From Singulisphaera sp. GP187 (GTDB lineage: Bacteria > Planctomycetota > Planctomycetia > Gemmatales > Gemmataceae): a DNA stretch of 39,384 bases. A program made the position numbers and the translations under genes. Below the pieces are notes generated by a model. The model saw nothing but the letters and a program-made list of their open reading frames with translations. It made no database searches and was not told the DNA's origin. Where the stretch lies: the NCBI GenBank assembly GCA_945905925.1, contig CAMDQN010000062.1, positions 1 through 39,384 of the forward strand, in the 5' to 3' direction. Shown piece by piece: positions 7,123-22,081 of this stretch; within the stretch, counting starts at the first letter, position 1, and each line of letters starts with the position of its first letter.

Positions 7123-7277
7123 CACGGCCCCTCAGAAAGCGCCAAACTCATACCCAAAGCCACCAACTCGCCCAAGATCAACCCAGTGTCGCCCTGCCGC
7201 GACTGTAAGTGAAGTGCCCCGCCAGGGGTATTCTCCGATATGCAATGACAGCATCCCGAACCTGCGGAGAACTCGTC

Positions 7278-8066
7278 ATGGCCGAAGGCCCTTTGCCCGA
7301 ATCGCTCGACGTGATCGCGGTCGCCCCGCACCCGGACGACCTCGAAATTCTCTGCGGGGGCACGCTCGCGAAACTCGTCAAGCAGGGCTACAAGGTCGGC
7401 ATCTTCGACCTCACGAGCGGCGAACCGACCCCGCGAGGTTCGCTCGACACTCGAAAGCAAGAAGCCGAAGACGCGCGGCGCATCCTGAACGTGCCGGTGC
7501 GCATCAACGTCGAATTGCCGAATCGCGTCTTGATGGACGGCCCGGAAGCGCGGTTCGCGCTCGCGACGCAGTTCCGCAGATACCGGCCCGGCATCGTGAT
7601 CATCGCCGCGGGTCGCACGCCTGCGGCTTCGCCGGATCATCTCCAGGGCGGGCTGATCGGCGAAGCGGCGCGGTTCTATTCGCAACTCACGAAGTGGGAC
7701 GAGCGGTTCGACGGCACCAGTCCATATCGCGTGCCGCACCTCGTGTACGTTCCGTTCGCGTTCGAGGCGGAACAGCGGTCCTGGCACAGCACGTTCGTGG
7801 TGGACATCAGCGACACGATTGAATTGAAGATCGCGGCGGTGAAGGCTTACGCGTCCCAGTTCGACGCGGCCCGCTTCTCTCGCGTTGAACACATGATCCG
7901 TTCGACGAACGGGTTCCACGGCGCGCGCTGCGGATACATGTACGGCGAGCTATTCGTGCTGCCGACGCCGGTCGGCGCCCCGGACTTGGTCGCGTTGGTT
8001 CACGGGAGCAAAGGCTCGCTCGCGCCGGTGCAGATACCGGGCAAGGATCACTTACCGATGGGGTGA
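7278..8066 (+). CDS. PIG-L / LmbE family deacetylase
   Basis: This 262-residue protein belongs to the zinc-dependent N-acetylglucosaminyl deacetylase-like family (PIG-L, BshB, MshB). The signature VIAVAPHPDDLEILCGG lies near residues 12-28, with His and Asp-Asp as metal or catalytic ligands; SGEPTPRG and ASPDHLQ (distal His ligand) follow in the usual order. The start is ATG 7278, with GGAGA seven bases upstream; the frame could extend to GTG 7209 but without a ribosome site. Size and the SGExxxRG motif resemble the BshB1 (bacillithiol) group, but no bshA or bshC is nearby, so the substrate is open. Its end overlaps the convergent gene by 15 bases. Confidence 0.88.
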   Translation: MAEGPLPESLDVIAVAPHPDDLEILCGGTLAKLVKQGYKVGIFDLTSGEPTPRGSLDTRKQEAEDARRILNVPVRINVELPNRVLMDGPEARFALATQFRRYRPGIVIIAAGRTPAASPDHLQGGLIGEAARFYSQLTKWDERFDGTSPYRVPHLVYVPFAFEAEQRSWHSTFVVDISDTIELKIAAVKAYASQFDAARFSRVEHMIRSTNGFHGARCGYMYGELFVLPTPVGAPDLVALVHGSKGSLAPVQIPGKDHLPMG

Positions 8067-8609
8067 GGAACGTGCGACTGGAGCCAGGATTTCCAGAACC
8101 TCGACGGCGGGCTGGTCACCGGTGTAGATGACCCCGAGGCGACCGAACGTCTCGGTGCCAGCGGGCACGCGGAACCATTCCGCCATCTCGGAACTGAGCG
8201 CCACGCGAAGGTAGGCGACCGGCTCGATGCGGCGGAGCATATGGTGTTGAATCAGCACGCGGCCGAGCGGCGTCTTCCCTTCGACAATCGCATTGCGAAC
8301 GATGTCGGGGCACACACCGAGGTCGATCCGCACGAGGCCGAACTGAACCACATACGCCGGGTCTTCCTTCAGAGCGAGCAGGATTTTTCGAGCGTACTCG
8401 TTACCACCGCGCCGACAACTCATTACTCGCACGTCCACGGGCGAACCATAGAACTCTTCGACCGTCACGGTCATGTGGTGCGTGTGGACGAGTAGTTTGT
8501 GGTACGGTTCGGGGACTTCGTGTGCGCGCACTTCGACCGCGAAGGGGCGGTCCGGTGAATCGGGGAACAGTCGGTACAGGTGGTCGAAGGTGGGGGCGGT
8601 GGTGAGCAA
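8052..8609 (-). CDS. Chorismate lyase-like (UbiC/UTRA fold) protein
   Basis: The roughly 185-residue protein has YGSPVDVRVMSCRRGGNEYARKI, VQFGLVRIDLGVCPDIVRNAIVEGKTPLGRVLIQH, RRIEPVAYLRV, and a C-terminal pattern of Gly-Arg-Leu-Gly and AVEVLEILAP. The fixed order of the Arg after FG and the LGRVL/E-rich segments is that of the chorismate pyruvate-lyase superfamily, which makes 4-hydroxybenzoate for quinones. I take the TTG at 8609 as start because the frame upstream runs into the antisense of the prenyl synthase; the true start is uncertain within about 20 codons. It lies 130 bases downstream of the polyprenyl synthase gene on the same strand, which fits a role in a prenylated aromatic compound. 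Activity on chorismate is not shown. Confidence 0.65.
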   Translation of the reverse strand: MLTTAPTFDHLYRLFPDSPDRPFAVEVRAHEVPEPYHKLLVHTHHMTVTVEEFYGSPVDVRVMSCRRGGNEYARKILLALKEDPAYVVQFGLVRIDLGVCPDIVRNAIVEGKTPLGRVLIQHHMLRRIEPVAYLRVALSSEMAEWFRVPAGTETFGRLGVIYTGDQPAVEVLEILAPVARSSPHR

Positions 8610-8706
8610 CTTGGCGCCCCCTCGCGGCGGGAAGTCGGGCTGGGCGGGCTGGGAGAGGATACAGGCCCGCGCGATGGCGCTTGCAGGCGAACCATTTGAG
8701 CGATGC

Positions 8707-8739
8707 TTGCGGCTTCGTGCCTGACTCGCGAAGCCGCAA
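8707..8739. repeat. Short inverted repeat after the prenyl synthase gene
   Basis: Arms 8707-8717 and 8729-8739 (TTGCGGCTTCG / CGAAGCCGCAA) pair perfectly over 11 bases with an 11-base loop, immediately beyond the TAA stop of the upstream gene. The arm is close to the GCCGCTTGCGGCTTCGCG unit found at 16200 and 20976. It could terminate or stabilise the transcript. Confidence 0.5.
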
Positions 8740-10560
8740 TTACTTTCCGAGTTCCACGAACTGCACCACGCCCTGGCGCGGTAGTTCGGGCTTTTCCAGC
8801 ACGCTATCGACGAGGTAGTAGAGCAGTTCGCGGAACTCGGTCGGTTGTACCTCGTCGGCCAGCGATTCAGCCTTGGCCCGGAACTTGTCCACGAGTTTGT
8901 CGGCCTTCTCGAACACCTTCGCCGCGAAGTACAAGTGCCGCACGCGGGCGACGATCTCGTCGGCGTCGGTGCCCGCGTTCCGGGCACTCGCGATGAGGTG
9001 AAGCAGTTCTTCGCGCAGCGCGGGGGACGAGCCTTCGAGCGCGAGCGCGAGGAGTAGCGTCGGGCGCGCCGCGAGGACATCTTGACCGGATACCAGTTTG
9101 TTGTCGTCGTCGCCGACCCAGTCCTTGATGTCGTTGAGAATCTGGAACGCGACGCCCACGTTGCGGCTGAAGTCCGCGATCATCTTTTCGTAGGAGGTCG
9201 CTTCGCCCGCGAGCCGCACGCCGGTGTAGAGTGCCGCCTCGAACGCCGGCGAGGTCTTCAGCGCGTAAATCTTCAGCGCGTCGAGCGTTGTGAGCGCCTT
9301 GTTTTTCGCGTCGCGCCAGAGCAATTCCGCGCCCTGACCTTCCGATAACTTGATGTGCGCGTCCGCGAGCTTGTCGAGGATGTCCGCGGCGGTCTCCGCG
9401 CCGAGCGATTTGCGGTCGCGCGATACACAGCGGTACCCGAGACCGATGAGGTAGTCGCCGAGGTTGATCGCGGTGCCGACCCCGTGAACGCGGTGAAGCG
9501 TTTCGACGCCGTAGCGGTACGCGTCGTCGTCCTCGATGTCGTCGTGAACGAGACTCGCCTTGTGGAAGGTCTCGATCGCGATGGCTGCGCGTTTCGCCGC
9601 GTCCGGCAGTTCCCAACCGCTATCGGAGAGCGTCGCCGGCGCGCCTTTGAGCGCGTCGTAGGTCGCCAGCGTCATGAAGGGGCGGCTTCTCTTACCACCA
9701 CGCGCAAGAAAGTCGTAAGCGATGCTCTCGTGACGCGCGAGTGGGTCTTTCACCTCACGCCCAGCGACTGCGGTCGCTGGGGTTTGCCGCGCCTTGGGAA
9801 CCAACCGAGTGAGTTCCGGTTCCTCAAACATGGCATTCGCGGCGCGCATCAGGTGCACGTACGTCTTGGTCTTCGCGCCGGGTACGGGCGTGTGAAGACT
9901 GATCGACTCGAAGACCCAGTCGTTATCGACGGACGTGTTCTTGCAGTTACTCGACAGGAGCGGCGTCGCGATGCACGGGATGCCGGCGAGCAGCACCTTG
10001 TCGAACGCTTTCTCCAATACGTTGAGGCACGCCACACCGACGATCGCGTCGATGTGGCCGCTGACGATGATCTTCAGCACGATCGGCGTGCCTTCTGACA
10101 CGAGTACTTTGTAGCCCAACTCTTCTGCCTTCGTGCGGAAGTCGCCGACCTCGCACGCGCCACACTTCTTGCAGTCCAGCCCCAACTCGTCGTATTCGGC
10201 TGGGCAGCCTTCCGCGTTCTTCAGACAGTGTGGGAGCAGCATCAACCGACGGTGGAATGGAATCGCCGCGACCTGTTCGCGCCAGAACTCGTTTGTCAGC
10301 ATCACCATAGTGAAGCCGAGGCACGACTCGCCGAGTCCGAGCGGCTTCAGCACCGCTTCGGCCATTTCCTTGGTCGATTCGCGCGTGAGCGGTTTCGACT
10401 TGTCCACCGTTTTGCAGAACTTCTCGACCGCGGCGCGGATGCTGTCCCGCACCGCGCGCACCTGTGGAACCTCCTTGAATGCGGCAGAGTTCAGCTTTGG
10501 CGGCTTTGTTGGGGCGCGTTCGGTTGTGGCTTCCGTCAGGGCTTCGGCGACAGTCGTCAC
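8740..10560 (-). CDS. DUF116 domain fused to polyprenyl (isoprenoid) diphosphate synthase
   Basis: The 606-residue product has two domains. Residues about 75-245 match DUF116: a Cys-rich segment HCLKN...C...DCKKCGACEVGDF (111-141), a Rossmann-like part with IVGVACLNVLEKAF (173-186), and CKNTSVDNDW (206-215). Residues about 265-606 are a trans-isoprenyl synthase: GGKRSRP (288-294), first Asp-rich motif DDIED (340-344), GDYLIGLGY, EGQGAEL, and a second motif NDIKD (476-480) in place of the usual DDxxD. It would elongate isoprenyl diphosphates with IPP in the cytosol; chain length cannot be told. The start is GTG 10560 with AAGGGA six bases upstream. The frame continues to 11781, but that part is only the antisense of the neighbouring gene. 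Confidence 0.88.
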   Translation of the reverse strand: MTTVAEALTEATTERAPTKPPKLNSAAFKEVPQVRAVRDSIRAAVEKFCKTVDKSKPLTRESTKEMAEAVLKPLGLGESCLGFTMVMLTNEFWREQVAAIPFHRRLMLLPHCLKNAEGCPAEYDELGLDCKKCGACEVGDFRTKAEELGYKVLVSEGTPIVLKIIVSGHIDAIVGVACLNVLEKAFDKVLLAGIPCIATPLLSSNCKNTSVDNDWVFESISLHTPVPGAKTKTYVHLMRAANAMFEEPELTRLVPKARQTPATAVAGREVKDPLARHESIAYDFLARGGKRSRPFMTLATYDALKGAPATLSDSGWELPDAAKRAAIAIETFHKASLVHDDIEDDDAYRYGVETLHRVHGVGTAINLGDYLIGLGYRCVSRDRKSLGAETAADILDKLADAHIKLSEGQGAELLWRDAKNKALTTLDALKIYALKTSPAFEAALYTGVRLAGEATSYEKMIADFSRNVGVAFQILNDIKDWVGDDDNKLVSGQDVLAARPTLLLALALEGSSPALREELLHLIASARNAGTDADEIVARVRHLYFAAKVFEKADKLVDKFRAKAESLADEVQPTEFRELLYYLVDSVLEKPELPRQGVVQFVELGK

Positions 10561-10776
10561 GGTTGATCCCTTGGCAGCGTCAGAGGAAAAGCGAGTCTCG
10601 CGCTCTTGCGGGCGAGCAGAGAGAAGATACGGGGCGGGGTGTACGCGACCAGTTTGGTCACAACTCGTTCGCGATGCAAATGAAAACGGCGCTTGCGTTC
10701 CGGTTCGCGGCGCGGTTTCGTGTACTCTACCCGATACCACCCGCCATACCATCACCGCACCGGAGTCTTTCACACC
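10561..10776. other. Divergent intergenic region
   Basis: This 216-base gap between two divergent starts should carry both promoters. No gene or strong motif was recognised. Confidence 0.35.
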
Positions 10777-11742
10777 ATGACCCGATTCCTCTCCGCTCTC
10801 ATCCTGTTCACACCGTTCGCTACACTTCGGGCCGAAGATCCGAAGGTCGATCCCTACGACCAGTCGAAGGTCGAACTCGAGAAGGAACCGCCCGCCGGCT
10901 TCAAGGGGAAGCGGGTGCTGATCGTTGCAGGGCGCCAGAGTCACGGGGCCGGCGATCACGAGTTCTTCGCAGGCAGCACGATTCTCATGAACTTGCTCAA
11001 GCAAACGGACGGCGTGTTCCCGATCCTGGCCCGCGACGGCTGGCCGAAGAACGAGAAACTCTTCGACACCGCGGACTGCATCGTGATGTACATGGACGGT
11101 GGTGGCGGTCACCCCGCGATCAAGCCAGAGCGGATGACGATCATCCAGAAGCAACTCGACCGTGGCACCGGTTGGGTGAATTTGCACTACGCGGTGGAGT
11201 ACCCAGTGAAGTCCGGTGACCGCGACATCGCAGGTCCGGTCAAGGGCTGGCTGGGCGGCTACTACGAAACCGGGTACTCGATCAACCCGCACTGGGATGC
11301 GAACATCCGCAGCCTCCCGAAGCACGACATTACCAAGGGCGTGAAACCGTTCACGATTCGCGACGAGTGGTATTTCGGGATGCGGTGGATTGAGGACATG
11401 AAAGGCGTGACGCCGATTCTGCAAGCGATCCCGCCGGACGGGACGCGCGGTACCCCGCACACGAAGGAACGCAAAGGCGAGATTGAAACGATGGCGTGGG
11501 CCTTCGATCGCAAGGACAAGGGACGCAGTTTCGGCTTCACCGGCGGGCACTTTCACCGCAACTGGGCCGACGAGAACTTCCGCAGGGTGGTTGTGAACGC
11601 GACGTTGTGGAGCGCGAAGGTCGACGTTCCGGAAGCCGGCGCGCCAGTGAAGTTCGACGCGGCCGACCTGAACAAGAACCTCGACAGGAAGGGGAAGGGC
11701 GAGTTCAAGCCGATCCTCCCACCGGAACCGACGAAGAAGTGA
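10777..11742 (+). CDS. Secreted ThuA-like domain protein
   Basis: The 321-residue protein starts at ATG 10777 with a signal peptide (MTRFLSALILFTPFATLRAE; cleavage probably after Arg-Ala). The mature part is a ThuA-like, class-I glutamine-amidotransferase-like fold: KRVLIVAGRQSHGAGDHEF near the start, TADCIVMYMDGGGGHP, GTGWVNLHYAVEYP, LGGYYETGYS, and near the end FGFTGGHFHRNWADENFRRVVVN. Planctomycetes carry many secreted ThuA proteins linked to carbohydrate use (ThuA itself acts in trehalose uptake and use in Rhizobium), but no activity is established for this group. It appears monocistronic and is followed by a hairpin at 11758-11783. Confidence 0.85.
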   Translation: MTRFLSALILFTPFATLRAEDPKVDPYDQSKVELEKEPPAGFKGKRVLIVAGRQSHGAGDHEFFAGSTILMNLLKQTDGVFPILARDGWPKNEKLFDTADCIVMYMDGGGGHPAIKPERMTIIQKQLDRGTGWVNLHYAVEYPVKSGDRDIAGPVKGWLGGYYETGYSINPHWDANIRSLPKHDITKGVKPFTIRDEWYFGMRWIEDMKGVTPILQAIPPDGTRGTPHTKERKGEIETMAWAFDRKDKGRSFGFTGGHFHRNWADENFRRVVVNATLWSAKVDVPEAGAPVKFDAADLNKNLDRKGKGEFKPILPPEPTKK

Positions 11743-11757
11743 TCGCGTTTGCTCTTC

Positions 11758-11783
11758 GCGTGGCGTTGCGCAGGTCGCCACGC
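11758..11783 (+). terminator. Hairpin downstream of the ThuA-like gene
   Basis: GCGTGGCG (11758-11765) pairs perfectly with CGCCACGC (11776-11783) around a 10-base loop, 15 bases after the stop codon. No U-run follows, so its role as a terminator is only plausible. Confidence 0.5.
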
Positions 11784-11790
11784 TTCCCTA

Positions 11791-11808
11791 ACGTTCCACG
11801 TGGAACGT
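11791..11808. promoter_or_regulatory. parS-like palindrome (putative ParB binding site)
   Basis: An 18-base perfect palindrome is centred on CACGTG. Its 14-base core GTTCCACGTGGAAC (11793-11806) is identical to the core of known chromosomal parS sites such as those of Pseudomonas; only the outermost base of each half of the 16-mer differs (C/G instead of T/A). It is intergenic, between the ThuA-like gene and the ECF sigma factor. No parA or parB is in the window. An ordinary bHLH-like or repressor operator is the alternative. Confidence 0.6.
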
Positions 11809-12024
11809 CGATCTTGGTTAGAATGTCGTCACGCAACACCGCGTGCTGTCGGAGCGCCGTGACGGTGGAGCAGTCGGTTCGGCTTCTCGGTTCGGTCCAT
11901 TTTTCATTCCGACCTCACTAGACTGCTAGCGTGGTGTAGTTTTGGTTACGCGCACCGGACCAGTTTTCGGCCTGTTCCGGGAACTTCGGCTCTGGGCGGA
12001 ACGTCGAACCCTCAGAAGTGAGTC

Positions 12025-12666
12025 GTGAGCGACGACGATCGCAGGCTCATTGCGGACTGTCTGGGCGGCCGACGGGATGCCTTTGGCGAGTTGGTATCCC
12101 GATACCAGGCAAGACTTTATAATTCCGCGATGCGTCTGGTCAACAGCCCCGAAGATGCCGCGGATGTCGTTCAGGACACGTTCCTGAGCGCTTATCAGTC
12201 GCTGCACACCTTCAAAGGTGACGCCGAGTTCTTCACCTGGCTGTACCGGATTGCGTTTAACACCGCGATCAGTTTGAAACGAAAGAAGCGGCCTTCGGTG
12301 AGTTTGGAGTCGCACACGCGAGAGACGGGCCTCGATCCTGACGACGAGTCGGATTACGTCAAGCCGAATTCCGCGATCGAGCGATCCGAGGATGAGCGGC
12401 AGTTACACGACGCGATCGCAAGGCTTTCCCCCGAACACCGCGACGCGCTTGTGCTGAAAGACCTCGAAGGCATGAAGTATGAGGAGATCGCGGAGGTGTT
12501 GGGCGTGCCGATCGGGACGATCCGCAGTCGCTTGCACAGGGCGCGATTGGAACTCCGAGACTTGCTGGTTCCGCTCGACGAGCGGGGAAGTGGCCCGGAC
12601 GCGATCGACGCTTCCGATGAAGTGAACCCAAAACCTCAGCCGCGACCGACCCCTCGGCGCGATTGA
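12025..12666 (+). CDS. ECF-type RNA polymerase sigma factor
   Basis: The 213-residue sigma-70 family protein carries region 2 (LVSRYQARLYNSAMRLV, DVVQDTFLSAYQSLHTF, FFTWLYRIAFNTA) at about 22-90. Region 4, with a helix-turn-helix (LSPEHRDALVLKDLEGMKYEEIAEVLGVPIGTIRSRLHRAR), is at about 135-178. The start is the GTG at 12025. The Pro-rich basic tail of about 25 residues has no known function. The gene is followed after 10 bases by a membrane anti-sigma candidate, so the two form an operon and the sigma factor is probably held at the membrane until a signal releases it. It resembles the SigW/RpoE-like group; target promoters are unknown. Confidence 0.93.
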   Translation: MSDDDRRLIADCLGGRRDAFGELVSRYQARLYNSAMRLVNSPEDAADVVQDTFLSAYQSLHTFKGDAEFFTWLYRIAFNTAISLKRKKRPSVSLESHTRETGLDPDDESDYVKPNSAIERSEDERQLHDAIARLSPEHRDALVLKDLEGMKYEEIAEVLGVPIGTIRSRLHRARLELRDLLVPLDERGSGPDAIDASDEVNPKPQPRPTPRRD

Positions 12667-12676
12667 GCTTAACCAT

Positions 12677-13984
12677 ATGACCGCAGACCAATTACTGTTG
12701 ATTACCGCAGCCGTGGACGGGGAACTGTCCGCGACGGAAGCCCGCGCCTTCCGCCTCCTGATCGCGAGTTGCGCCGAAGCCCGCGACCTCTACGCGAAAC
12801 TCAAGGCCGACAGCGATCGCGTTCGTGGGCTGCCGCGCGTGGCGATTCCAGCCGATCTCCATGCGAAGATTCTGGCCAAACTCGCCGCCACGCCACCTGC
12901 TCCGCAGGTCCGTCCGCAGCCACACGCTGAACCCAGTCCGACGCCGATCCCTTTGCGTCGCTTCCCCGCGTGGGTGCCGGTCGCAGCGGCTGCGAGCGTG
13001 TTCCTCTGTCTTGCTGCCGCGTCGTTCGCATTCTTCTCAAGTCCGGGCGCGCCGAATGGTGGCGTCGCCAAAAACCATTGGTCGAATGTTCTACCCGCAC
13101 CGCAAGAAGGCTCGGCGGTGCCGTCACCAACGCAACCCGTGCGCCCCGATCCCGCGACCGTTGTTCGCAGTGAGGTGTTGCCGGTTCCGCCAGCCCCGAC
13201 GCCGCGCCCGGTGGTGCCCGACGCGGTCGTGGTCGCGCCGGAACCGCGGAGCGTGCCAGCGCCCGATTTTATCGGGTTCCCGCCGCTCCCAAAACTGCCG
13301 CCTATCGAGCGAATCGAAGTCAAACTTCCGTTCCTGCGTCCGGTCGCGGACCTCGGGCGCGAAGACATCAACCAGGAACTGCTCGACCAACTCCATCACG
13401 GCCGCGACCTGGCGTTCAAGTTCGACGTGTTCGTGCGCGACACGGGTCGCGGGGTGGAGGTTTTTCAGCACACGGCGAAGGCGAGCGGTCTCGCGGTGTT
13501 CGCAGACGCGGCAACGCTCGACAAGCTCAAGAAGAAGCAGGCGCATTCGATCGTGATTTACACAGAGAGCTTTACCGCGGATGAACTCGCGAAGTTGTTC
13601 GCAAAGTTCTCGACTGAGGACGCGAAGTTCTCCCCGAAGGTATGCGACTCCCTGCACGCGATCCCGGTTGTTCGTTCCGAGGAGTTGGAATTGAAGTCGC
13701 TCCTGGGTGTCGATGTGGGTCTGTTCAAGCGCCCAGTCGGGAACGGCGGGGCAGGGCAGGGCGCGGACAAGAACGTGAGTTCGGGGACGATCGACAGCGT
13801 GGTGAAGGCGGTGTCGAAGCCGGGTGAGAAGCTCGCGGTGATGCTGACGTGGCAGACCACGCACGCGAACATTGCCCGGACGAACCCCGTGATGTCAGCC
13901 GAACTGAAGGCGTTCCTCGCAAAGCGAGGCGAGCGCAAGCCGAACGTGGTGCCCGCGATCATCGTTCTCCGCCCAGCGGGGTGA
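12677..13984 (+). CDS. Membrane anti-sigma factor with large extracytoplasmic domain
   Basis: The 435-residue partner of the ECF sigma factor begins with an anti-sigma-like helical domain (TAAVDGELSATEARAFRLLI, about 1-70). It lacks the His-x3-Cys-x2-Cys zinc ligands of classic ZAS proteins. One transmembrane helix lies at 98-120, followed by a Pro/Val-rich linker (about 121-210) and a 220-residue C-terminal domain outside the membrane containing FKFDVFVRDTGRGVEVF and LTWQTTHANIARTNPVMS. I do not recognise that last domain; it is the likely sensor. The ATG at 12677 lies 10 bases after the sigma stop. The gene ends at the border of an IS630 relic, but the C-terminus looks complete. Confidence 0.8.
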   Translation: MTADQLLLITAAVDGELSATEARAFRLLIASCAEARDLYAKLKADSDRVRGLPRVAIPADLHAKILAKLAATPPAPQVRPQPHAEPSPTPIPLRRFPAWVPVAAAASVFLCLAAASFAFFSSPGAPNGGVAKNHWSNVLPAPQEGSAVPSPTQPVRPDPATVVRSEVLPVPPAPTPRPVVPDAVVVAPEPRSVPAPDFIGFPPLPKLPPIERIEVKLPFLRPVADLGREDINQELLDQLHHGRDLAFKFDVFVRDTGRGVEVFQHTAKASGLAVFADAATLDKLKKKQAHSIVIYTESFTADELAKLFAKFSTEDAKFSPKVCDSLHAIPVVRSEELELKSLLGVDVGLFKRPVGNGGAGQGADKNVSSGTIDSVVKAVSKPGEKLAVMLTWQTTHANIARTNPVMSAELKAFLAKRGERKPNVVPAIIVLRPAG

Positions 13985-14262
13985 CGGAAGAAATACAATT
14001 GGCCATGGAGTTGTCGATCACCTTGTTGTACCTGCTGAACTACTCTCCCTATCTGAACCTGATCGGGAGCCACTGGCGGTTCCTCAAGCGGAAGAGCGTA
14101 TCTGGCGAGTACCACCCCAAGTTTGCCGCCTTCAAGGCCGCCTTCAAGGCCGCCATCGCGGATACCCCGAACCAACTCAGCACAACACGCGCTGACGCGC
14201 TGGCTTCGCTGGCGCCCCTCAACTTCCAGGAGTTCGGCGATGTTTCACTCCTGGCCGCGTGA
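13985..14262 (+). pseudogene. IS630-family transposase relic (C-terminal end)
   Basis: In the frame ending at TGA 14262 the sequence reads LLYLLNYSPYLNLIGSHWRFLKRK, matching the LPxYSPDLNxIExxWxxxKxx block of IS630 transposases, followed by a helical tail with AAFKAAFKAAIADTP. The catalytic Glu of the NxIE motif is Gly here, and everything before this block is missing. A 12-base direct repeat (TTCAAGGCCGCC twice) lies within the tail. The fragment starts right after the anti-sigma stop and ends 3 bases before the SDR stop. It is inactive. Confidence 0.75.
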
Positions 14263-14265
14263 AGT

Positions 14266-15069
14266 CTAATCTTGTTTTCGTTGCTTCTCGGCTTCCGTCA
14301 CAGGGCGCAGCGCCAATTGCTGCGCATCTAGACCGCCGTCAACAGTGAACACGCTCCCGGTACTGTAGTTCGCGCGGTCGGACGCCAGGAACACGTACCA
14401 CCACGCGACATCTTCGACTGTCGCGATCCGGCGGATCGGAATCTGTGCAATTACAGATTCGCGCTCCCGTGGCGATGACTTCAATCCGAAGTCGGTGAGC
14501 GGCGTTTCCACCAGTCCTGGCGCGATGGCTGCGGTCGTGAACCCGTGCGGGGCGAGTTCCACCGCGAGCTGCCGCGTGAGGGCGTTCACCGCGCCCTTGC
14601 TCGCGTCGTAGAGCGTGTGCAGAGGTTCGGAACGGGTCGCGTTCAGCGAGGTGCTGAACAGGATACGCCCACCCCGCTTCACCGCGTATGCGCGCCTGAC
14701 CACCTCGCGCGACAGCGCTACGGGAATCCAGACGTTCAGCCGGAAAATGAAGTCGAAGTGATCGCGCGTGATCTGCGCGAGCGGCGGTTCTTTGTAAGTG
14801 CCCAAGTTATTCACGAGAACGTCGATCCCACCGAACGCGGTCCACGCCTCCGCGATCAGTCGCTCTGGTTCGCCGTCGCTGAGCAAATCGGCCTGCACGT
14901 ATCGCGTGTGTTCGTAGTCGCTGAGTAACCGTTGAACGTCGGGACACTTCGCTAGCGGCTTCTCGGATGTCACGACCACCTTCGCCCCGCTCGCGGCGAA
15001 CGCCTGTGCGACGCCGAGGCCGATACCCTGACTGCTCCCGGTGATGAGCGCGGACTTGCCTTTCAGCAT
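14266..15069 (-). CDS. Short-chain dehydrogenase/reductase (SDR)
   Basis: The 267-residue classical SDR has a Rossmann fold for NAD(P)H. The nucleotide motif TGSSQGIG lies at about 10-17, then NNLG, a catalytic Ser in STSLNATRSE, and the YDASK active-site Tyr/Lys, with APGLVETPL and the C-terminal TGSVFTVDGG. Glu in VVVTSEKP after beta-2 would favour NAD. The substrate (sugar, polyol or keto acid) cannot be told. The start is ATG 15069; the frame runs 11 codons further but without support. It is divergent from the SMP-30 gene, with an inverted repeat in the shared 159-base gap. Confidence 0.88.
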   Translation of the reverse strand: MLKGKSALITGSSQGIGLGVAQAFAASGAKVVVTSEKPLAKCPDVQRLLSDYEHTRYVQADLLSDGEPERLIAEAWTAFGGIDVLVNNLGTYKEPPLAQITRDHFDFIFRLNVWIPVALSREVVRRAYAVKRGGRILFSTSLNATRSEPLHTLYDASKGAVNALTRQLAVELAPHGFTTAAIAPGLVETPLTDFGLKSSPRERESVIAQIPIRRIATVEDVAWWYVFLASDRANYSTGSVFTVDGGLDAQQLALRPVTEAEKQRKQD

Positions 15070-15090
15070 GACGTATACTCCCGCACAAAG

Positions 15091-15159
15091 TAGTAGGCAC
15101 ACGCCATGCGCCGTTGCGATTCCTTGCGTTAAGCGATGGCGTGCGGCATGTGCCTACTA
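15091..15159. repeat. Imperfect inverted repeat between divergent genes
   Basis: Arms 15091-15117 and 15133-15159 match at about 21 of 27 positions, with the outer TAGTAGGCACA / TGTGCCTACTA perfect. It lies between the divergent SDR and SMP-30 starts, so it is not a normal terminator. It could be a mobile REP-like element or an operator region. Confidence 0.5.
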
Positions 15160-15228
15160 ATTTGAAAGACTCGCCAGCGACGCGATTCACGGGTAACGTA
15201 GCAACCGCACCGCAAACGGAGTACCGCG

Positions 15229-16200
15229 ATGAGAAGTACCGAGGCCCGCGTCTACATCGATTTCACGGAGGAGGCCGACCGGTTTCTGCCCGAAGGCCCG
15301 CGCTGGATGATGATCGCGGGGCAGCCGGCGCTCGTCTGGGTCAACATCCAACTCGATGCGTCTACCACCCGGGGCGATCTTCACATGCACTTTCCTGGCA
15401 CCGACGGGGGCGGCGATTCCGGGATGGGATGTCCGGGACGCCCCGGGTTCTTGCTGCCGCTCGCGGACGAGGATCAGGCGCTCGTCGGGGTTGATAAAGT
15501 GCTTCGGGTTGTCGATCTCGCGGACGGCATGTGGACCGAACCGCTCGCGACGATTCCCGACGACAACCCGCGAACGATCATCAACGACGCGGAAATTGTG
15601 CCAGGTGGCAAAGCTGTCGTGTTCGGCACGAAGGACACGCAGTTCGACGCCGACGCGAAGCTCGCCCACCTGTACCTCTACACCGTCGATGACAACCGGG
15701 TGACGGCCCTCGCGGACAAACAGGTGTGCTCAAATGGAAAGGTGTTCGCGACCGACGCGCGCGGGGTGATCTTGTTCGACATCGACACACCGACGCGAAA
15801 GGTTGTTCGCTACCGGCTCGATGTAAGTGCCCGCATACTTGTTCCGGACGGCATCGCGCTCGACCTTCGGAACGAACCCGGATTCCCAGATGGGATGTTC
15901 GATTGTGGCGACGGAAGCGTGATCGTCGCGTTCTACAACCCGGACCTCGTTGAGGCGGGAAGGGCGGTTCGGTTCTCGCTCGTGACTGGCGAATCGCTGG
16001 AGGAGTGGACCACGCCAGGCTCGCCGCGCGTGACGTGTCCCCTTCTTGTGAAGCGCCAGGACGGTGTGAAGTTGATCCTCACCACCGCGACCGAAGGCAT
16101 GCCCACCGACATGCGAGCGAAGTGCCCCACCGCGGGGTGCCTGTTCATCGCGGAGACGCAGTTACTGGATTGCCCCGCGCCTGAAGTCGTAAGACTCTGA
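15229..16200 (+). CDS. SMP-30/gluconolactonase-like beta-propeller protein
   Basis: The 323-residue protein follows the SMP-30/gluconolactonase/LRE plan. A metal-ligand Glu lies in LPEGPRWM (about 20-27), Asn-Asp in IINDAEIVPGG (about 117-127), SNGKVF, and Asp in VPDGIALD (about 204-211), in the right order and spacing. The family opens sugar lactones with a bound divalent metal in a six-bladed propeller. No signal peptide is seen, so it is probably cytosolic. It ends with a Cys-containing segment (CPTAGCLFIAET) that, with the propeller-closing strand, is usual in the family. Its setting beside an SDR and a TIM-barrel epimerase fits sugar or sugar-acid catabolism. Confidence 0.8.
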   Translation: MRSTEARVYIDFTEEADRFLPEGPRWMMIAGQPALVWVNIQLDASTTRGDLHMHFPGTDGGGDSGMGCPGRPGFLLPLADEDQALVGVDKVLRVVDLADGMWTEPLATIPDDNPRTIINDAEIVPGGKAVVFGTKDTQFDADAKLAHLYLYTVDDNRVTALADKQVCSNGKVFATDARGVILFDIDTPTRKVVRYRLDVSARILVPDGIALDLRNEPGFPDGMFDCGDGSVIVAFYNPDLVEAGRAVRFSLVTGESLEEWTTPGSPRVTCPLLVKRQDGVKLILTTATEGMPTDMRAKCPTAGCLFIAETQLLDCPAPEVVRL

Positions 16201-16248
16201 GCCGCTCGCGGCTTCTCGAGCCGTTTCCCCGCGAAGCCGCAAGCGGCT
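16200..16248. repeat. Inverted repeat between convergent genes
   Basis: Arms 16200-16218 and 16231-16248 match 16 of 18 (AGCCGCTCGCGGCTTCTC against GCGAAGCCGCAAGCGGCT). It separates the convergent SMP-30 and TIM-barrel genes and can act as a terminator for both. The arm sequence recurs at 20976-20996. Confidence 0.6.
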
Positions 16249-17086
16249 AACTCGCCAGGCACTCGCGCAGGAACCGCACGCCATGTTCGATGTCACGGTA
16301 GCGATCCGCCTGGCTGCCGACTTCGCGCTCGATGCACAGTGGCCCGGTGAAGCCGATGCGTTGAAGCGCCTTCACGAACGCCTTTGTGTTCGTCTGTCCC
16401 AATCCCAACGGCACTTCTTCGCCCCACGTCCCCTTCACGCTCGGGCGTTTCGCGTCTTTCAAGTGAACGCTCGCGATGTCCGGTGCGAGCAGATCGAGCA
16501 CCTGCAGTGGGTCGTCCTTGTCGTAAAGCAGCATGTTCGCGGGGTCGAAGTTCACCTTCAGGTTCGGTGATTTCAAGTCGTCGAGCGTGCGCCGGAGCAG
16601 CGCCGCTGACTCCTGACCCGTCTCGAACGCGACCGTCACGCCGGCCCGCTTCGCGAGGTCCGCGACTTGGCTGAGCGTGTCTAAAAACGCTTTCCGAGTT
16701 GGAGAACCGACTTCGGGGATGAACCCGGCGTGCAGCATCACGTCCTTCAGTCCGAGTTCTTCCGTGCGGGCCAGTGCCCACTTGAACCGCTCGATTCGTT
16801 CGGGTCGCGTCGAGGGATCTCCGAACCCGCCGGTCTTCTCGATAGTTTGGGGACTGGTGTAGTCCTCGCCGGGAAATCCGAGCATAGCGCCGGACATCTG
16901 GAAACCCGCGGCACACGCCGCTGCCGGCATTGCATCGCCTTCGGCCCAACTCGCGTGGTGCGGATCACCACATGCGATCTGCACCACGTCGATCCCGAGC
17001 CGGTCCATGAATGATCTCAGTTCCTGTACGCTGGTCACTTGAAGCGACCAGCTACAGACCCCGATCGCTAGCGGTGGAATCGTCAT
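16247..17086 (-). CDS. Sugar phosphate isomerase/epimerase-like TIM-barrel protein
   Basis: The 279-residue protein fits the xylose-isomerase-like TIM barrel (AP endonuclease 2 superfamily): IGVCSWSLQV at the first strand, VVQIACG, MLGFPGEDY, VMLHAGFIPE (metal His), VAFETGQES (metal Glu), VNFDPANMLLY (metal Asp), SVHLKDAKRP (His/Asp) and GPLCIEREVG (final Glu). These give a full metal site for a sugar or inositol isomerase or epimerase. No signal peptide is present. The start is ATG 17086. The exact substrate is unknown; dehydratase or isomerase roles in inositol pathways are alternatives. Confidence 0.85.
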   Translation of the reverse strand: MTIPPLAIGVCSWSLQVTSVQELRSFMDRLGIDVVQIACGDPHHASWAEGDAMPAAACAAGFQMSGAMLGFPGEDYTSPQTIEKTGGFGDPSTRPERIERFKWALARTEELGLKDVMLHAGFIPEVGSPTRKAFLDTLSQVADLAKRAGVTVAFETGQESAALLRRTLDDLKSPNLKVNFDPANMLLYDKDDPLQVLDLLAPDIASVHLKDAKRPSVKGTWGEEVPLGLGQTNTKAFVKALQRIGFTGPLCIEREVGSQADRYRDIEHGVRFLRECLAS

Positions 17087-17231
17087 GTGGAAGTCCTCGG
17101 AGGGAGAGTCTCGCCGCGATTGTAATGGTTCACGCAGTCGCTGTCGCGAGGTGATTGTGTAGTTCCCGTATCGGAGAATGTTGTCGAATTCCAGAGTATT
17201 GCCCGAGGAGCCAGGGCAACACAGTTGTTGA

Positions 17232-17919
17232 TCTTGGGTGCAGCACCAGGTCGGCCATCCGGTTCCGCTCCAGGCGTTGCGGCCCGCGGTGCCGGCTGCG
17301 GTCGCCGAACTCGTGGCCCGGATGATGGCGAAGAAACCGCACGATCGGTTCGCCAGCGCCGGAGAGGTGGCTGCGGCACTGGCACCTCGCGCCCGTTACC
17401 CCGCCGAGTCCGTGGTGGTGCCCGTTGTCGCGGTCCACAGCCACGGTCAGGGGGCCGTCGTTGCGGGACACGGTGCCGCCGGTGGGTGTGGTCGCGGCGT
17501 CCGGTGATCGTGCCTCGATTAGCCCCGGTCCACCCCTCGAAATCCCGATCGATCCGGTGCCCGTGCTGCAACTGGTCGCGCCGTCCGACGACACCCGGCA
17601 TCCGCGCGGTATCGCGAAGGTGCTCCCACTCATCGAACCGAGCACCGATCGCGTGTCCAACCGTCACGCCCCCGCGTCCCGGCGCGTTCCGCAGCGGCCT
17701 GCCCCGGCGGCGGATTGGAATTCTCGTGTCCTCAAGTCGAGTCTGCTCGCCGTGGTGGTCGCGATCCTGGTCGTGCTCGCGGTCTGGGCCGCGACGCCCT
17801 TGACCGGACCTGACCCCAACCCCGGACCTGGGCCGAAATCCTCGCGCGGGCGGGATGATACCATTCGGGGTAAGACAACAACCGGTGTTGTTTTCACTTC
17901 CCCGTGCTGTGAATCGTGA
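17232..17919 (+). pseudogene. Ser/Thr protein kinase relic (C-lobe end and membrane anchor)
   Basis: The first frame (17232-about 17430) reads VGHPVPLQALRPAVP and VARMMAKKPHDRFASAGEVA, the last helices of a Pkn-type kinase domain. It begins after an in-frame TGA, so the N-lobe and catalytic loop are absent. The continuation is in another frame (17425-17919) and holds a low-complexity Pro-rich linker and one transmembrane helix (SLLAVVVAILVVLAVWA) followed by Gly-Pro repeats, the usual order in Gemmata-type membrane kinases. A frameshift therefore lies near 17430. The 3' end overlaps the convergent propeller gene by 26 bases. Confidence 0.7.
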
Positions 17920-20221
17920 GGAATACCGAGCCGACAACCGGTTTGCCGTCGGCGGACTTCACGTTGTATCCCACCTGCATTTGCATAACCGGTTTGAGCG
18001 CGTCGAATGTGATCTCCAGCGTGCGGCCGTCGGGCAGCAGTTTCGCGGAGCGAACCGGTACGTCGTCCTGTCCCTCCGCGTTTGGGTTGGTCACCTTCCA
18101 GCGTTTCGAGCCGTAATCGCCGCTCCACCGGTAGTTCCACCACGCACAGCGGTAGTTGTCGGGCGGTGCCACTGATTTTGCGTCGAGCGCTGCACTGAAC
18201 GTCAGGCGGATCGTGTTGCTTTTCACTTCCATCGCGGTCGGCACATCCAGAGCCTTGTCGGTGTACCGGACGCGCTGAAGACACCCGTCGGCTTGCGCCG
18301 CGGTCTGCCATCCATTCAAACCGCAGACGTAGAGGTTTCCGTCCGAACCGAATCGGCCGCGACACACGCCCGACAGGAACTGCACGTTGAACGCCGCGAC
18401 CCCGCCTTGAACTCGCCCTTCACCTAACTCCTGGCGGAGCAACACGAAGGGCCGGCAGCGCCCGTAGGAGAGGTGGAGGGGTAGTCCCGCGAGTGGGCCG
18501 AAGGTCTTTTCGGGCACCCACACCTGACCGCCGGCGGAGTTGTCCACCTCGCGCGGGAGCCAGCACAGCGGCGGGTCGAACGTCGCCGGTGGCGTCGCGC
18601 GATGGTGCCCGCGCATGTCGCCGTAGAAGCCGCCCTTCTTGTACTCGTCGATGCGTGTCGCCGGCATCCAGTTGCCTTCCTGGTCGGCGCCGGTGAGGAC
18701 ACCTGTCGGGGACATGCCCATTCCGATCGGGTGCCGGAATCCGGTGCTAAACACTTCGGACTTCTTCCCGTCTTTGCTCACCTTGATGAGACACCCACCG
18801 GTTGGCGTGTCGGTGTCGCCCGTTTTGAAGAAGTAGTAGTTGCCGTCGGGGTCGATTTCGAGGCAAGTGTCGTAGGAATGTTCACCGCCACCGCAGTGCC
18901 AGTCGTTGTTCACACTCTCGTAGAAGTCGGCTTCGCCGTCGTCGTTGATGTCGTGTAGGCGCGTGAGTTGCCCGCGTTCGAGGACGATGACCTTCCCGTC
19001 TACGACCCTCAACCCAAGCGCGTGATACAGGCCGGTCGCGAACCGCTGCCAGGAGCAGGTGCCAGTTTTCTCGTTCACGGTCACGAGCCACACGTCGCCG
19101 TGGCAGGTGCAGACTGCGATGCGGCCGTCCTTCAAGAAGTCGAGGCCGGTGCAGAAGAACAGCGCGTTGAAGCGGTTCTTGTACGGGATCGTGAGCGTGT
19201 CCACCGCGAACGCACCGGGTTCGGCGCCGCGGACCAGTTCCGTGACGAGCGGTGCGCCCCACCGCTTCGGGCCGGCTTTCGTGAGCGTGCTCAGGTCGGC
19301 CGGGTCCGGGAGTTTCGCGAGCGCCACGATCAACTTTTCCACGTCCTTCGCGGCGACTTCCGCTACGCCCACAGTAAAGGACGTGGACTTGTCGTTTGGC
19401 GCGACGACGATGTTGACCGCAGTGCCCACGTTGAGCGATATTCCGTTCGTGTGTCGCACCCACGCGAACCGCACTCTGGCGCCGGTGCCCGAGGTGATTA
19501 CCGACAATCCCTTCACATCGAGCGTTGTCGAATTTCCGCCGAGAAGGTCACAGAGGTGACGGCTCGCCTCCGCGTTGCCTGACGCGACCGTTAGCGTCGA
19601 TGTGGTGAACCGGTTGTCGCCGACAGTCACGACATCAACGCACTCCAGGACCGCGCGTGTGCCCACCCTGTAGTCGAATACGACGCGGTCGCCATGAATG
19701 TGCAGTCCCTTGTATTGCGCCCACTCGCGCGAGATCGGGGCCGTGAGGCGATTCACACGTGCGTCCCACTGCCCTTTCGGGTCGGCCCACCCGGCTCCCG
19801 TGTTCGCGGCGGACACCATGGTCCCCTTTGGCGTCGGCGTGTTTAGCAACCCGAACCGGCGGTCGCTGTGGTTCAGGTACCCGCCGGTCCAGGTGGCACT
19901 CAGTCGCAGCGTGTTGCGGTCGAAGACGGCCGCCGCGTCGCCCTTCTCGCCGAGCTTCACGACCGTTGCCTTGTAGACCGTCTGGTTCGCCGCGCCGAGG
20001 GCGTAGCGCATAGTGCAACCGAGGAATGGCCCGGTATTCATCTCACGGAACCGCGCGTCGGTCCAGTCCTTGTCGGTCATCTTTTCCCACGGCGCCGCGT
20101 GCCCGGTCGCGGGCCTGGGAGTCCAGTCAGCGAGCGAAGGATCGACGCCGCGCGGCGGCGGCGCGACCGGTAACTGGGCGGCAGGCGCAGCGAGCAACAG
20201 CGCGAGAAGGGGGGTGAGCAT
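17894..20221 (-). CDS. Secreted DUF6797-type protein with dehydrogenase-like beta-propeller
   Basis: The 775-residue protein starts with a signal peptide (MLTPLLALLLAAPAAQLP). The N-terminal 330 residues contain a motif set that I associate with DUF6797 of planctomycetes (WEKMTDKDWTDARFREMNTGPFLG, GGYLNHSDRRFGLL). The second half is a glucose/sorbosone-dehydrogenase-like propeller: FCTGLDFLKDGRIAVCTCHGDVW, YHALGLRVVDGKVIVLERGQLTRL, INDDGEADFYES, FRHPIGMGMSP, GVCRGRFGSDGNLYVCGLNGWQ. The last 120 residues are a beta-sandwich. The protein is likely periplasmic and involved in carbohydrate breakdown. No heme motif (CxxCH) is present, unlike many relatives that are fused to cytochrome c. Confidence 0.82.
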   Translation of the reverse strand: MLTPLLALLLAAPAAQLPVAPPPRGVDPSLADWTPRPATGHAAPWEKMTDKDWTDARFREMNTGPFLGCTMRYALGAANQTVYKATVVKLGEKGDAAAVFDRNTLRLSATWTGGYLNHSDRRFGLLNTPTPKGTMVSAANTGAGWADPKGQWDARVNRLTAPISREWAQYKGLHIHGDRVVFDYRVGTRAVLECVDVVTVGDNRFTTSTLTVASGNAEASRHLCDLLGGNSTTLDVKGLSVITSGTGARVRFAWVRHTNGISLNVGTAVNIVVAPNDKSTSFTVGVAEVAAKDVEKLIVALAKLPDPADLSTLTKAGPKRWGAPLVTELVRGAEPGAFAVDTLTIPYKNRFNALFFCTGLDFLKDGRIAVCTCHGDVWLVTVNEKTGTCSWQRFATGLYHALGLRVVDGKVIVLERGQLTRLHDINDDGEADFYESVNNDWHCGGGEHSYDTCLEIDPDGNYYFFKTGDTDTPTGGCLIKVSKDGKKSEVFSTGFRHPIGMGMSPTGVLTGADQEGNWMPATRIDEYKKGGFYGDMRGHHRATPPATFDPPLCWLPREVDNSAGGQVWVPEKTFGPLAGLPLHLSYGRCRPFVLLRQELGEGRVQGGVAAFNVQFLSGVCRGRFGSDGNLYVCGLNGWQTAAQADGCLQRVRYTDKALDVPTAMEVKSNTIRLTFSAALDAKSVAPPDNYRCAWWNYRWSGDYGSKRWKVTNPNAEGQDDVPVRSAKLLPDGRTLEITFDALKPVMQMQVGYNVKSADGKPVVGSVFLTIHSTGK

Positions 20222-20250
20222 AGGGTACCTATCGGAGAGTTTCGTCTGCA

Positions 20251-20337
20251 GGCGAGCAGGGCGTCGGCTCCCCTGTAATCTTTATACCCAGCGGGTTGCT
20301 GTGAAGTTTAACAGGGGGCCGACGCGCCCTCCTCGCC
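20251..20337. repeat. Imperfect inverted repeat upstream of the DUF6797 gene
   Basis: Arms 20251-20275 and 20311-20337 pair with a few mismatches and a 2-base bulge. The ends read GGCGAGC / CTCGCC, as in the repeats at 4825 and 28414. The 35-base loop is A/T-richer than its surroundings. Confidence 0.5.
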
Positions 20338-20405
20338 TAAAACTGGCTCGATTCCTCACGGTAGCACCCGGTCACATTTCCGTGAGAAAGGATTTTAGTC
20401 GCTTC

Positions 20406-20434
20406 TTGCACTGGCGCGAACCGATAGCTATAGT
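20406..20434 (+). promoter_or_regulatory. Sigma-70-like promoter for the Cys-rich protein gene
   Basis: TTGCAC (20406-20411) and TATAGT (20429-20434) are separated by exactly 17 bases, which fits the housekeeping promoter. Transcription would start near 20441, giving a leader of about 70 bases before the ATG at 20512. Confidence 0.5.
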
Positions 20435-20511
20435 GTCTCCGACCGGTGGGGTCGTGGCGCTCGTGTCGGGTGTCAGCGCTGCCGGAGTCAACGAACACAA
20501 GGGTTCCTCTC

Positions 20512-20865
20512 ATGCTGCGTGCAGCGTTAGCAATCGCACTCGGGTTCGCCGTCGTCACCCTGGCCGGGACGAACTTCGACGCGAATGCCCAGGACAAGAA
20601 GGAAGAGAAGAAGGCCGAAGCAAAGAAGCTCGAAGGCAAACTGACCTGCACGAAGTGCGCCCTGAGCGAGACTGACAAGTGCGGTCACGCCCTTCTCGTC
20701 AAAGAAGGCGACAAGACCGTCAAGTACTACCTGAACGACAAGGGCGGCGCCGAGAAGTACCACGGCAAGTGCTGCAAGGCCGACGTGGACGCGACCGTGA
20801 CCGGCAAGGTCGCTGAGAAGGACAAGAAGAAGGTCATCAACGAGCCGAAGGTCGAAATCAAGTAG
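20512..20865 (+). CDS. Small secreted Cys-rich protein (DUF6370-like)
   Basis: The 117-residue protein begins with a signal peptide (LRAALAIALGFAVVTLAG, cleavage probably after ANA), a Lys/Glu-rich charged linker, then a beta-rich domain with LTCTKCALSETDKCGHALLV, VKYYLND, KYHGKCCKADVDATVTG and a C-terminal strand KVEIK. The order CxKC...C...KYHGKxC...TVTGxV is that of a small planctomycete family that I associate with DUF6370; function is unknown. Five Cys residues suggest disulfides or metal binding in the periplasm. The start at ATG 20512 was preferred over the longer frame because it opens the signal peptide. The gene has its own promoter and terminator. Confidence 0.8.
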   Translation: MLRAALAIALGFAVVTLAGTNFDANAQDKKEEKKAEAKKLEGKLTCTKCALSETDKCGHALLVKEGDKTVKYYLNDKGGAEKYHGKCCKADVDATVTGKVAEKDKKKVINEPKVEIK

Positions 20866-20890
20866 GATTTGCGGTGCTTTCGCACCACAC

Positions 20891-20914
20891 AACGCCACCC
20901 TCGCGGGTGGCGTT
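20891..20914 (+). terminator. Rho-independent-type terminator
   Basis: AACGCCACCC (20891-20900) pairs perfectly with GGGTGGCGTT (20905-20914) around a TCGC loop, 26 bases after the stop, followed by a T-rich stretch (CGTCGTTTGT). Confidence 0.75.
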
Positions 20915-20975
20915 CGTCGTTTGTAAAGACGGCTCTCCCCTCCGCGTAAAGCGGGAGCATGAATTTGCTTGTCTG

Positions 20976-20996
20976 AGCCGCTTGCGGCTTCGCGAG
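20976..20996. repeat. Single unit of the GCCGCTTGCGGCTTCGCG repeat
   Basis: This unpaired copy (AGCCGCTTGCGGCTTCGCGA) matches the arm at 16231-16248 in reverse complement. It is itself able to form a small hairpin (AGCCGC..GCGGCT). It lies upstream of ispH. Confidence 0.45.
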
Positions 20997-21090
20997 TTGC
21001 GCTCCTCTTCCCTTATCGAGCGGGTTGGGAGCGGGTCTGTCTTCGCAGCGCCCTTCGGCGTACCATGATGGTGCAAACAGGAGGTCACGC

Positions 21091-22023: not shown

Positions 22024-22081
22024 TCCACCCAACCTCCGGTTTTGCGTGCGACCCGCCGGGTCGCCTTTCGGTGACCACGCG

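Follow-up and report, generated by a model that had tools for sequence, protein, structure and literature searches.

Results

The palindrome and its neighbouring genes

The window (the whole analysed stretch of 39,384 nucleotides) is contig C62 of a 6.47-Mb draft genome in 251 contigs (G000). In the gap between a gene encoding a ThuA-domain protein and a gene encoding an ECF-type RNA polymerase sigma factor lies the sequence ACGTTCCACGTGGAACGT, which is its own reverse complement and whose symmetry ends at the next base on either side, confirming the perfect 18-base palindrome of a preliminary description. The features of the locus are listed in Table 1. The palindrome follows the end of the ThuA gene by 48 bp and precedes the sigma factor gene by 216 bp; the TAGAAT of the site is found at 11819-11824, 12 nt past the core. 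The ThuA gene is retained in relatives and was used as the anchor for the window site.

Table 1. Features at the palindrome locus of the window
Feature	Position	Strand	Basis
ThuA-domain protein gene, upstream neighbour	10693..11742	+	Pfam PF06283; start codon uncertain
Perfect 18-bp palindrome, parS-like	11791..11808		sequence symmetry
14-bp core GTTCCACGTGGAAC	11793..11806		same letters as the copies upstream of G000 parB
Asymmetric second part of the composite site, GTC-n7-GTTAGAATGTCG	11807..11828	+	alignment of 57/67 sites
ECF-type RNA polymerase sigma factor gene, neighbour on the other side	12025..12666	+	NCBIfam/Pfam

No second match to the 14-mer core was found in the window even with up to two mismatches (0.19 expected at two mismatches), and an order-1 Markov model of the window predicts 0.0003 exact cores in 39 kb and 0.056 in 6.47 Mb. 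Only one further perfect 18-bp palindrome exists in the window, GCCCTCCCTAGGGAGGGC at 39360-39377; it is located at the contig end and is unrelated in sequence. As had been noted before, the outermost base departs from classical parS, with C/G on both sides in place of T/A. C/G is the outermost base in 24 of the 26 half-sites of G000, and the outer base of the core is not constant between relatives. The palindrome looks like a genuine parS and is a predicted binding site of ParB.

Copies in the genome and association with parB

The exact core GTTCCACGTGGAAC was found 13 times in G000 and the reversed control pattern 0 times. Three copies are arranged in tandem at C2:66075-66210, with gaps of 172, 112 and 50 bp between core and parB start. 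Since these three stand just before the only strong ParB gene of the genome, the predicted identity of the motif as parS is well supported. The remaining 10 copies are single and dispersed over ten contigs.

Among the 17 readable parB loci of the genus, 12 (G000, G001, G002, G003, G007, G009, G010, G011, G012, G015, G016, and G017) carry two to four exact cores each within 700 bp upstream of parB, and four (G004, G008, G013, and G014) carry a site with one mismatch there. In the 700 bp before parB of G006, no parS-like site was found with up to three mismatches. Two loci were left out, namely G005, where the contig starts at this place, and G018, which gave no strong ParB hit. The G006 genome (82% complete) contains no exact core copy, and its ParB is the sole case of 15 aligned in which the parS-class arginine is lost (GLSS for GLDR); the joint absence of arginine and motif fits a link between ParB and the motif. 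The earlier claims that the motif is parS-like and tied to ParB, and that the window site lies outside a parAB locus, are upheld.

ParB, ParA and SMC proteins

The ParB of G000 (L036:6261-7190) has the N-terminal, HTH and dimerisation domains (Pfam), and its close relatives include ParB proteins of Gemmata sp. IIL30 and of Gemmataceae MAGs, which makes G000 a Gemmata-like planctomycete. Aligned with Caulobacter ParB, it has R, L, N and G at the specificity positions, which is the RxxG parS class and not the QKKR of Noc; these four positions separating parS-binding from NBS-binding proteins are those described in PMC7383237. Three of the six usual ParB/Noc DNA contacts differ (K171 to L, S172 to D, and R204 to K). 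The recognition helix reads GLDR in 13 of 15 ParB proteins of the genus versus GKSR in Caulobacter, with GVDR in G002 and GLSS in G006, and K occupies the 204 position in all 15. With contact residues that differ, a shift in the specificity of ParB is possible. G006 (L214), as regards both its ParB and its genome, represents a natural control.

The NCBIfam Noc model outscores the general ParB model on the G000 protein, although its 200 bits fall short of the 315-bit cut-off. G000, G003, G011, G015 and G017 gave no second strong ParB-type protein. A second ParB/Noc paralogue as reader of the sites was considered and rejected, since only weak partial hits (E >= 1e-6) were obtained in G000, G003, G011 and G017 and none in G015; other members of the genus encode further ParB-like proteins, with hits up to E = 2.5e-26. 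A Noc-like N-terminal helix of ParB seemed promising in G000 and G003 and was also rejected, as it is not conserved in G015 or elsewhere; the N-terminal helical moment is 0.14 in G000 and 0.17 in G003 versus 0.24 for the median of the protein's own 12-mers.

No ParA-type ATPase motif was present in the 12 kb around parB of G000, and KGGxGKT was absent from the fetched 10-16 kb around parB in nine of 10 loci, the exception being G017, where it is about 3.5 kb away. An SMC protein above the family cut-off was found in G000 and 12 others of the 19 genomes.

A composite site with a second box

In 67 sites from four species, a box was counted where at least four of the six letters of TAGAAT were present. 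In 57 sites, TAGAAT-like letters stand 12 nt after the core, and the alignment of these sites has a second block, GTC-n7-GTTAGAATGTCG, on one side of the core at fixed spacing. In its composite form, the site joins the 14-bp parS core to an asymmetric second box at constant spacing, GTC-n7-GTTAGAATGTC. The ten sites without the box are four of G000 (C5, C8, C17, and C47) and six of G003. The site at C47:40388 (L008/L041), which is without the second box, has a longer symmetric flank, ACCGTTCCACGTGGAACGGT. At the parB-proximal copies, the TAGAAT-like part was found in 3/3 in G000, 4/4 in G011, 3/3 in G017 and 1/4 in G003, and in three of the four G011 copies it occurs without GTC.

The loci had mostly been gathered by the exact core, which is corrected in part by searches with the flank alone and with the element ends described below. 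When the block alone was searched, with the core left open and three mismatches allowed, G017 gave 54 places (47 with the exact core and seven with a changed core), G011 gave 35 (20 with the exact core and 15 without it), and G000, G003 and G015 gave 3, 3 and 1, respectively; the reversed pattern gave 0 in each genome. These matches indicate that box and core mostly go together. At two places in G011, C46:60059-60113 and C22:58263-58299, the second box is also repeated in tandem, and the additional copy lacks a parS core of its own.

Distribution among relatives

The exact core was searched in 59 genomes, 20 of which match, and in 95 genomes of the family, 34 of which match; the genus set comprises 19 genomes including G000. 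Within the genus, seven members (G001, G002, G007, G009, G010, G012, and G016) have two to four core copies, and seven (G004, G005, G006, G008, G013, G014, and G018) have zero exact cores. The copy-rich relatives have totals of 15 (G003), 24 (G011), 9 (G015) and 48 (G017). With the parB cluster subtracted, the dispersed cores number 10 in G000, 11 in G003, 6 in G015, 20 in G011 and 45 in G017. In G001, two cores lie away from parB, at 2.27 and 8.99 Mb.

In a ParB tree of 19 rows, the species with dispersed sites form two groups, {G000, G003, G015} and {G011, G017}. The best tree has two changes of state, of which the well-supported branches force only one. The genomes of both lineages are smaller than most of the genus.

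Two members of another genus of the family, G091 and G095, hold 15 and 6 copies. Among the 20 fetched copies, most have the classical outer T/A and so conform to the classical 16-bp type, the second box is absent by eye, and nine are inside a called reading frame; in G091, four tandem copies are found in a stretch that also holds parB. Since these copies lack the box and nine of 20 are in reading frames, they were treated as a separate parS set, which is probably ordinary parS, and were left out of all counts of dispersed sites.

Gene context of the dispersed sites

The gene context was tallied with a simple gene caller for 86 dispersed sites of four species (45, 20, 10, and 11 sites). Convergent gaps hold 41 sites, co-directional gaps 36 and divergent gaps six, one site is inside a called gene, and two are at a locus edge. 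In the background of 209 other gene pairs of the same loci, 38 are convergent, 53 divergent and 118 co-directional, so that the convergent excess is 41/83 sites versus 38/209 pairs (Fisher p = 1.8e-7). At co-directional sites, the box points with transcription in 18 cases and against it in 14. The convergent excess and the mixed orientation of the box speak against a promoter or operator.

The gap of the window site was followed through the relatives. Downstream of the ThuA gene, G001, G007, G012 and G016 have a convergent gene, with no such site in the gap between the two. A composite site is present in the same gap in G003 and G015, and also in G017 with the element in reversed orientation; in G011, whose locus showed no ThuA gene, a reversed element adjoins the convergent gene. 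The gap of G000 is preserved towards ThuA and rearranged towards its other neighbour. The ECF sigma neighbour is unlike that of the relatives, which places a rearrangement edge between the site and the sigma gene (11828-12025, read against L085, L203 and L238). The gap may be a favoured target into which sites were inserted more than once, or it may have held an ancient site that was later turned round and, in other species, lost.

Inverted-repeat elements around the sites

In G011 and G017, an AT-rich stretch of roughly 155-195 bp encloses the site, which is set about 20 bp in from one of its ends. These ends are inverted (GATGTCTA-n-TTTTG ... CAAAA-n-TAGACATC), and the G+C content of the stretch is 34-38% versus about 60% around it (measured in G017). 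The DNA common to the G011 loci ends within about 190 bp at the site. The end motif TGTCTANTTTTG gave 72 hits in G017 (one for the reversed control); every hit belongs to one of 43 parS elements, of which 40 have exact and three have variant cores. In G011 it gave 23 hits (control 4), 22 of them at elements, and in G001 one hit (control 3). These elements look like non-autonomous mobile repeats.

In genome searches, the end motif was absent from G000, G003 and G007, and from its absence in G000 and G003 it follows that the terminal inverted repeats do not apply to the window's own site. Three G000 sites (L043-L045, on C57, C70 and C167) are found at the centre of an imperfect inverted repeat of about 180 bp, located between convergent genes and with arms that resemble GTAGGGTGGGTCGAGCCGGC.

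Conservation of core and box

Orthologous places were determined by blastn of 3-8 kb loci. For 15 of the 20 dispersed exact sites of G011, an exact G017 site was found at the orthologous place, with the same orientation in all 15; the flanks match over 150 bp or more, two-sided in 12 pairs and one-sided in three (L073, L078, and L080). Of the remaining G011 sites, L067 is ambiguous, and L066, L074, L077 and L079 were unmatched in G017. Since the exact core was used for finding the sites, its identity within pairs is given by construction, and the test is the fraction recovered: at 69% identity per base, a 14-bp core is expected intact in well under one of 100 pairs, compared to the 15 of 20 seen.

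The identity between G011 and G017 is 87% in the 21-bp block after the core and 78% in the 25 bp before it, 65-69% in the element beyond the block, and 63-64% in the adjacent DNA, where random sequences give 60% under the same alignment (totals of the 15 pairs and two uncertain pairings of L067). Columns identical in all 15 pairs are the core, GTC, and positions 18-19, 21, 25, 28-29, 33, -1 and -11. The bodies of the elements are thus almost saturated with change between the two species, while core and box are kept.

In the group of the window, four of the 11 G000 loci have a common place in G003; the core is exact in both species at three of these and has a single mismatch in G000 at one. Seven loci are without a G003 counterpart, a number to be read with the small contigs that limit matching. 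The window site is present at the same place in G003 and G015, and at this place the core plus GT and GTTAGAATGTCG are identical in the three species, while other flank columns vary. The comparison of orthologous places shows core and box to be kept by selection.

Concerted evolution of the elements was rejected, since they are hardly more alike within a species (identity 0.69 and 0.66) than between orthologues (0.69). A second place seemingly common to both groups (G000 C70, G017 C14, and G011 C17) was also rejected; it is only a neighbouring gap, because the matching genes are one-sided in G000 and two-sided in G017 and G011.

Chromosomal position of the sites

The contig order of G000 is not fixed, and positions were taken from relatives. 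The preliminary description had placed the window near the origin, which is not supported by four closed or nearly closed relatives (G001, G007, G012, and G016), where the window's genes are about opposite parB. In G001 (one contig of 9.0 Mb), the DNA of window positions 7200-27000 is mostly found at 4.1-5.1 Mb, with few weak hits elsewhere; the ThuA gene is at 4.27 Mb and parB at 0.06 Mb. Among 19 readable 20-kb intervals of G001, those up to 4.06 Mb mostly have a positive GC skew (seven of 10) and those from 4.51 Mb mostly a negative one (seven of nine), which puts the change of sign between these two points. G007 (10.1 Mb) has the ThuA gene at 5.47 Mb and parB at 0.06 Mb. In G016 (9.8 Mb), where parB is at 3.97 Mb, the strong window hits are spread around 8.9 Mb, beginning at 7.1 Mb and running slightly beyond the end of the record. 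In G012, where parB is at 6.35 Mb on an 8.3-Mb contig (9.2-Mb genome), they lie at 1.0-1.7 Mb. These positions put the window in the terminus half in the relatives.

For the other nine G000 sites, one flanking gene each was placed in G001 by a joined protein search. The best hits are at 8.69 (C5), 0.44 (C8), 3.42 (C36), 1.27 (C57), 8.92 (C70) and 2.80 Mb (C167); C54 (46% hit at 0.15 Mb) and C17 (48% hit) are weakly placed, and C47 is without a hit. Four of the eight mappable genes are within 0.45 Mb of the record ends, one of them being C54 with its identity of only 46%. Overall, the G000 sites are spread out and somewhat enriched towards the origin. The 45 dispersed copies of G017 are found on 15 contigs totalling 3.93 of 4.8 Mb; 8.1 sites would be expected on the site-free contigs of about 0.87 Mb (P = 0.0003), indicating an uneven density.

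Clustering at the origin, typical though not defining for parS, was not observed, as only the parB cluster is near the record start (G001 and G007). A random distribution had been named beforehand as evidence against the motif; the sites are indeed dispersed, but their sequence, context and conservation are anything but random. A marked KOPS-like polarity was rejected, since the orientation of the elements does not follow local GC skew in G017, G011, G003 and G000; a weak polarity may be missed in the small local intervals used.

Discussion

Comparison with known systems

The sites resemble chromosomal parS in the core palindrome, in the cluster next to parB and in a ParB of the parS class, and GTTCCAC, half of the core, is a main half-parS motif bound by ParB of P. 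aeruginosa (PMC10419367). Elsewhere, parS is described as almost exclusively near ori (PMC5815017, PMC7333895), with 22 sites near the origin in M. xanthus (PMC3899335) and eight over about 0.75 Mb in B. subtilis, and a wider scatter is reported for a few lineages including Bacilli (PMC8357415). The present genomes differ in having up to 45 dispersed copies, most of them with an asymmetric box, and an excess between convergent genes. The half-parS of P. aeruginosa is similar in that ParB is found at many scattered genomic places, as is predicted here, and differs in consisting of 7-bp half sites, whereas here full palindromes are embedded in a composite element, many of them at orthologous places.

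With the NBS of Bacillus, the sites share scattered palindromes around the chromosome, predicted here to be read by a ParB-type CTPase as well; the NBS differ in sequence, in the specificity residues of the reader, in having a dedicated second protein and in being absent from the terminus. The core GTTCCACGTGGAAC is unlike the NBS consensus TATTTCCC-GGGAAATA (as given in PMC7383237), and the ParB of G000 has neither the QKKR nor the N-terminal amphipathic helix by which a Noc protein is recognised. The SegB sites of Sulfolobales are scattered over the chromosome and cluster at segAB, and differ in being archaeal, mostly within genes, and without long-range spreading (PMC12284271). SegB is the closest parallel for a scattered map of a partition protein (PMC12284271), and Noc for scattered sites of the ParB type (PMC4331003). 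Bacterial MITE/REP sequences are likewise short, intergenic and multi-copy with inverted ends, as in G011 and G017, and differ in that conservation here is highest in the internal parS and box rather than at the ends. Among the matches listed in open-licence literature on parS and Gemmata segregation, no account of such dispersed composite parS was found.

Interpretation and alternatives

The most probable reading, in which we place a fair measure of confidence, is that the palindromes are composite parS sites used by ParB along the chromosome, partly spread on short inverted-repeat elements. The copies would derive from the unit of the parB type, in one group by spreading on such elements, would have settled between genes with a convergent excess, and would then have been retained by selection. 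ParB would nucleate at each dispersed copy, a binding that we infer, form a closed CTP clamp and from there move along the adjacent DNA, and the SMC-loader function that ParB has elsewhere would probably act at many chromosomal places and no longer at the origin alone. The role in the cell would presumably be condensation or segregation of the whole chromosome. Weighing against this reading are the decayed cores among the copies found by their flanks (7/54 in G017 and 15/35 in G011) and at one of the four places common to G000 and G003, the seven G000 loci without a G003 match, the ten sites without a box, the three altered DNA contacts of ParB, and the flanking genes that map near the origin.

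For parS away from the native cluster, a disadvantage is mostly reported: near ter in P. aeruginosa and B. subtilis, and at mid-arm in Caulobacter, where an extra site costs fitness while one near ter is tolerated (PMC5815017). Widely spaced strong parS lead to noticeable SMC collisions in B. subtilis (PMC8357415), and far extra parS are disfavoured partly through SMC recruitment (PMC5815017, PMC8357415). Given these effects in B. subtilis and Caulobacter, the Gemmata-like species with dispersed sites, whose chromosome would be loaded from many points, should have adjusted something, and the second box is the obvious candidate. A stronger form, in which the chromosome would be polycentric, with about 10-50 selected composite sites at which ParB and a second factor bound to the GTTAGAATGTC box drive segregation and condensation throughout instead of from a centromere at the origin, is possible but doubtful. 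It would apply to the two Gemmata-like groups, with sites from the origin side to the terminus side, and would need two changes of state on the ParB tree.

That the sites are remnants of MITE/REP-type non-autonomous inverted-repeat elements, with a parS-like palindrome by chance and no role for the cell, is unlikely. Such selfish spread would account for the position of the G011 and G017 sites about 20 bp inside an element with the inverted ends TGTCTA-n-TTTTG, for end motifs that occur almost only at elements (72/72 in G017 and 22/23 in G011), and for copy numbers that differ strongly between species; yet core and box are kept in bodies near saturation, a like composite unit stands at parB, and the dispersed copies of G000 and G003 are without such ends. 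An ordinary origin-proximal parS cluster obscured by the fragmented assembly is quite improbable. The four G000 flanking genes near the record ends of G001 and the uneven density in G017 agree with it, whereas the window's genes about opposite parB in four relatives, the other flanking genes at 1.3, 2.8 and 3.4 Mb in G001, and the 15 occupied contigs of G017 do not.

There is only a slight chance that the single ParB acts as Noc, bringing the scattered sites to the membrane and steering budding or division. The scatter resembles the about 70 Noc sites described for B. subtilis (PMC4331003), and the Noc model ranks above the general ParB model, although under its cut-off. The specificity residues are of the parS class and not QKKR, and the first 13 residues of ParB vary among relatives, with a low helical moment in G000 and G003, so that no membrane anchor is supported; moreover, Noc sites are described as absent from the terminus (PMC4331003), while the relatives place the window site towards the terminus. 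Least probable of all is an operator or promoter of an unrelated regulator, with the palindrome 12 nt before a -10-like TAGAAT and serving the ECF sigma gene. The fixed spacing in 57 of 67 sites and a window box that points toward the sigma gene would suit it, but convergent gaps are favoured and divergent gaps avoided (41 versus 6 of 83), the box is oriented almost equally with and against transcription, and the same core clusters at parB; this reading was rejected on gene context and orientation. A known RNA family was rejected as well, since a tRNA was the sole Rfam hit above the gathering thresholds across 10 sources.

Implications for planctomycete chromosomes

Budding planctomycetes are not known to possess FtsZ. 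The nucleoid of G. obscuriglobus is described as highly condensed (PMC3440768). Centromere-like sites that are scattered and nearly unchanged are unusual and suggest that ParB may work along much of the chromosome, as judged from the genomes compared. A natural lineage with many selected sites across the chromosome would offer a direct means of studying how ParB and SMC behave once they are loaded at numerous points. The second box would be a concrete handle for finding a new partner, and the sites may bear on how planctomycete chromosomes segregate.
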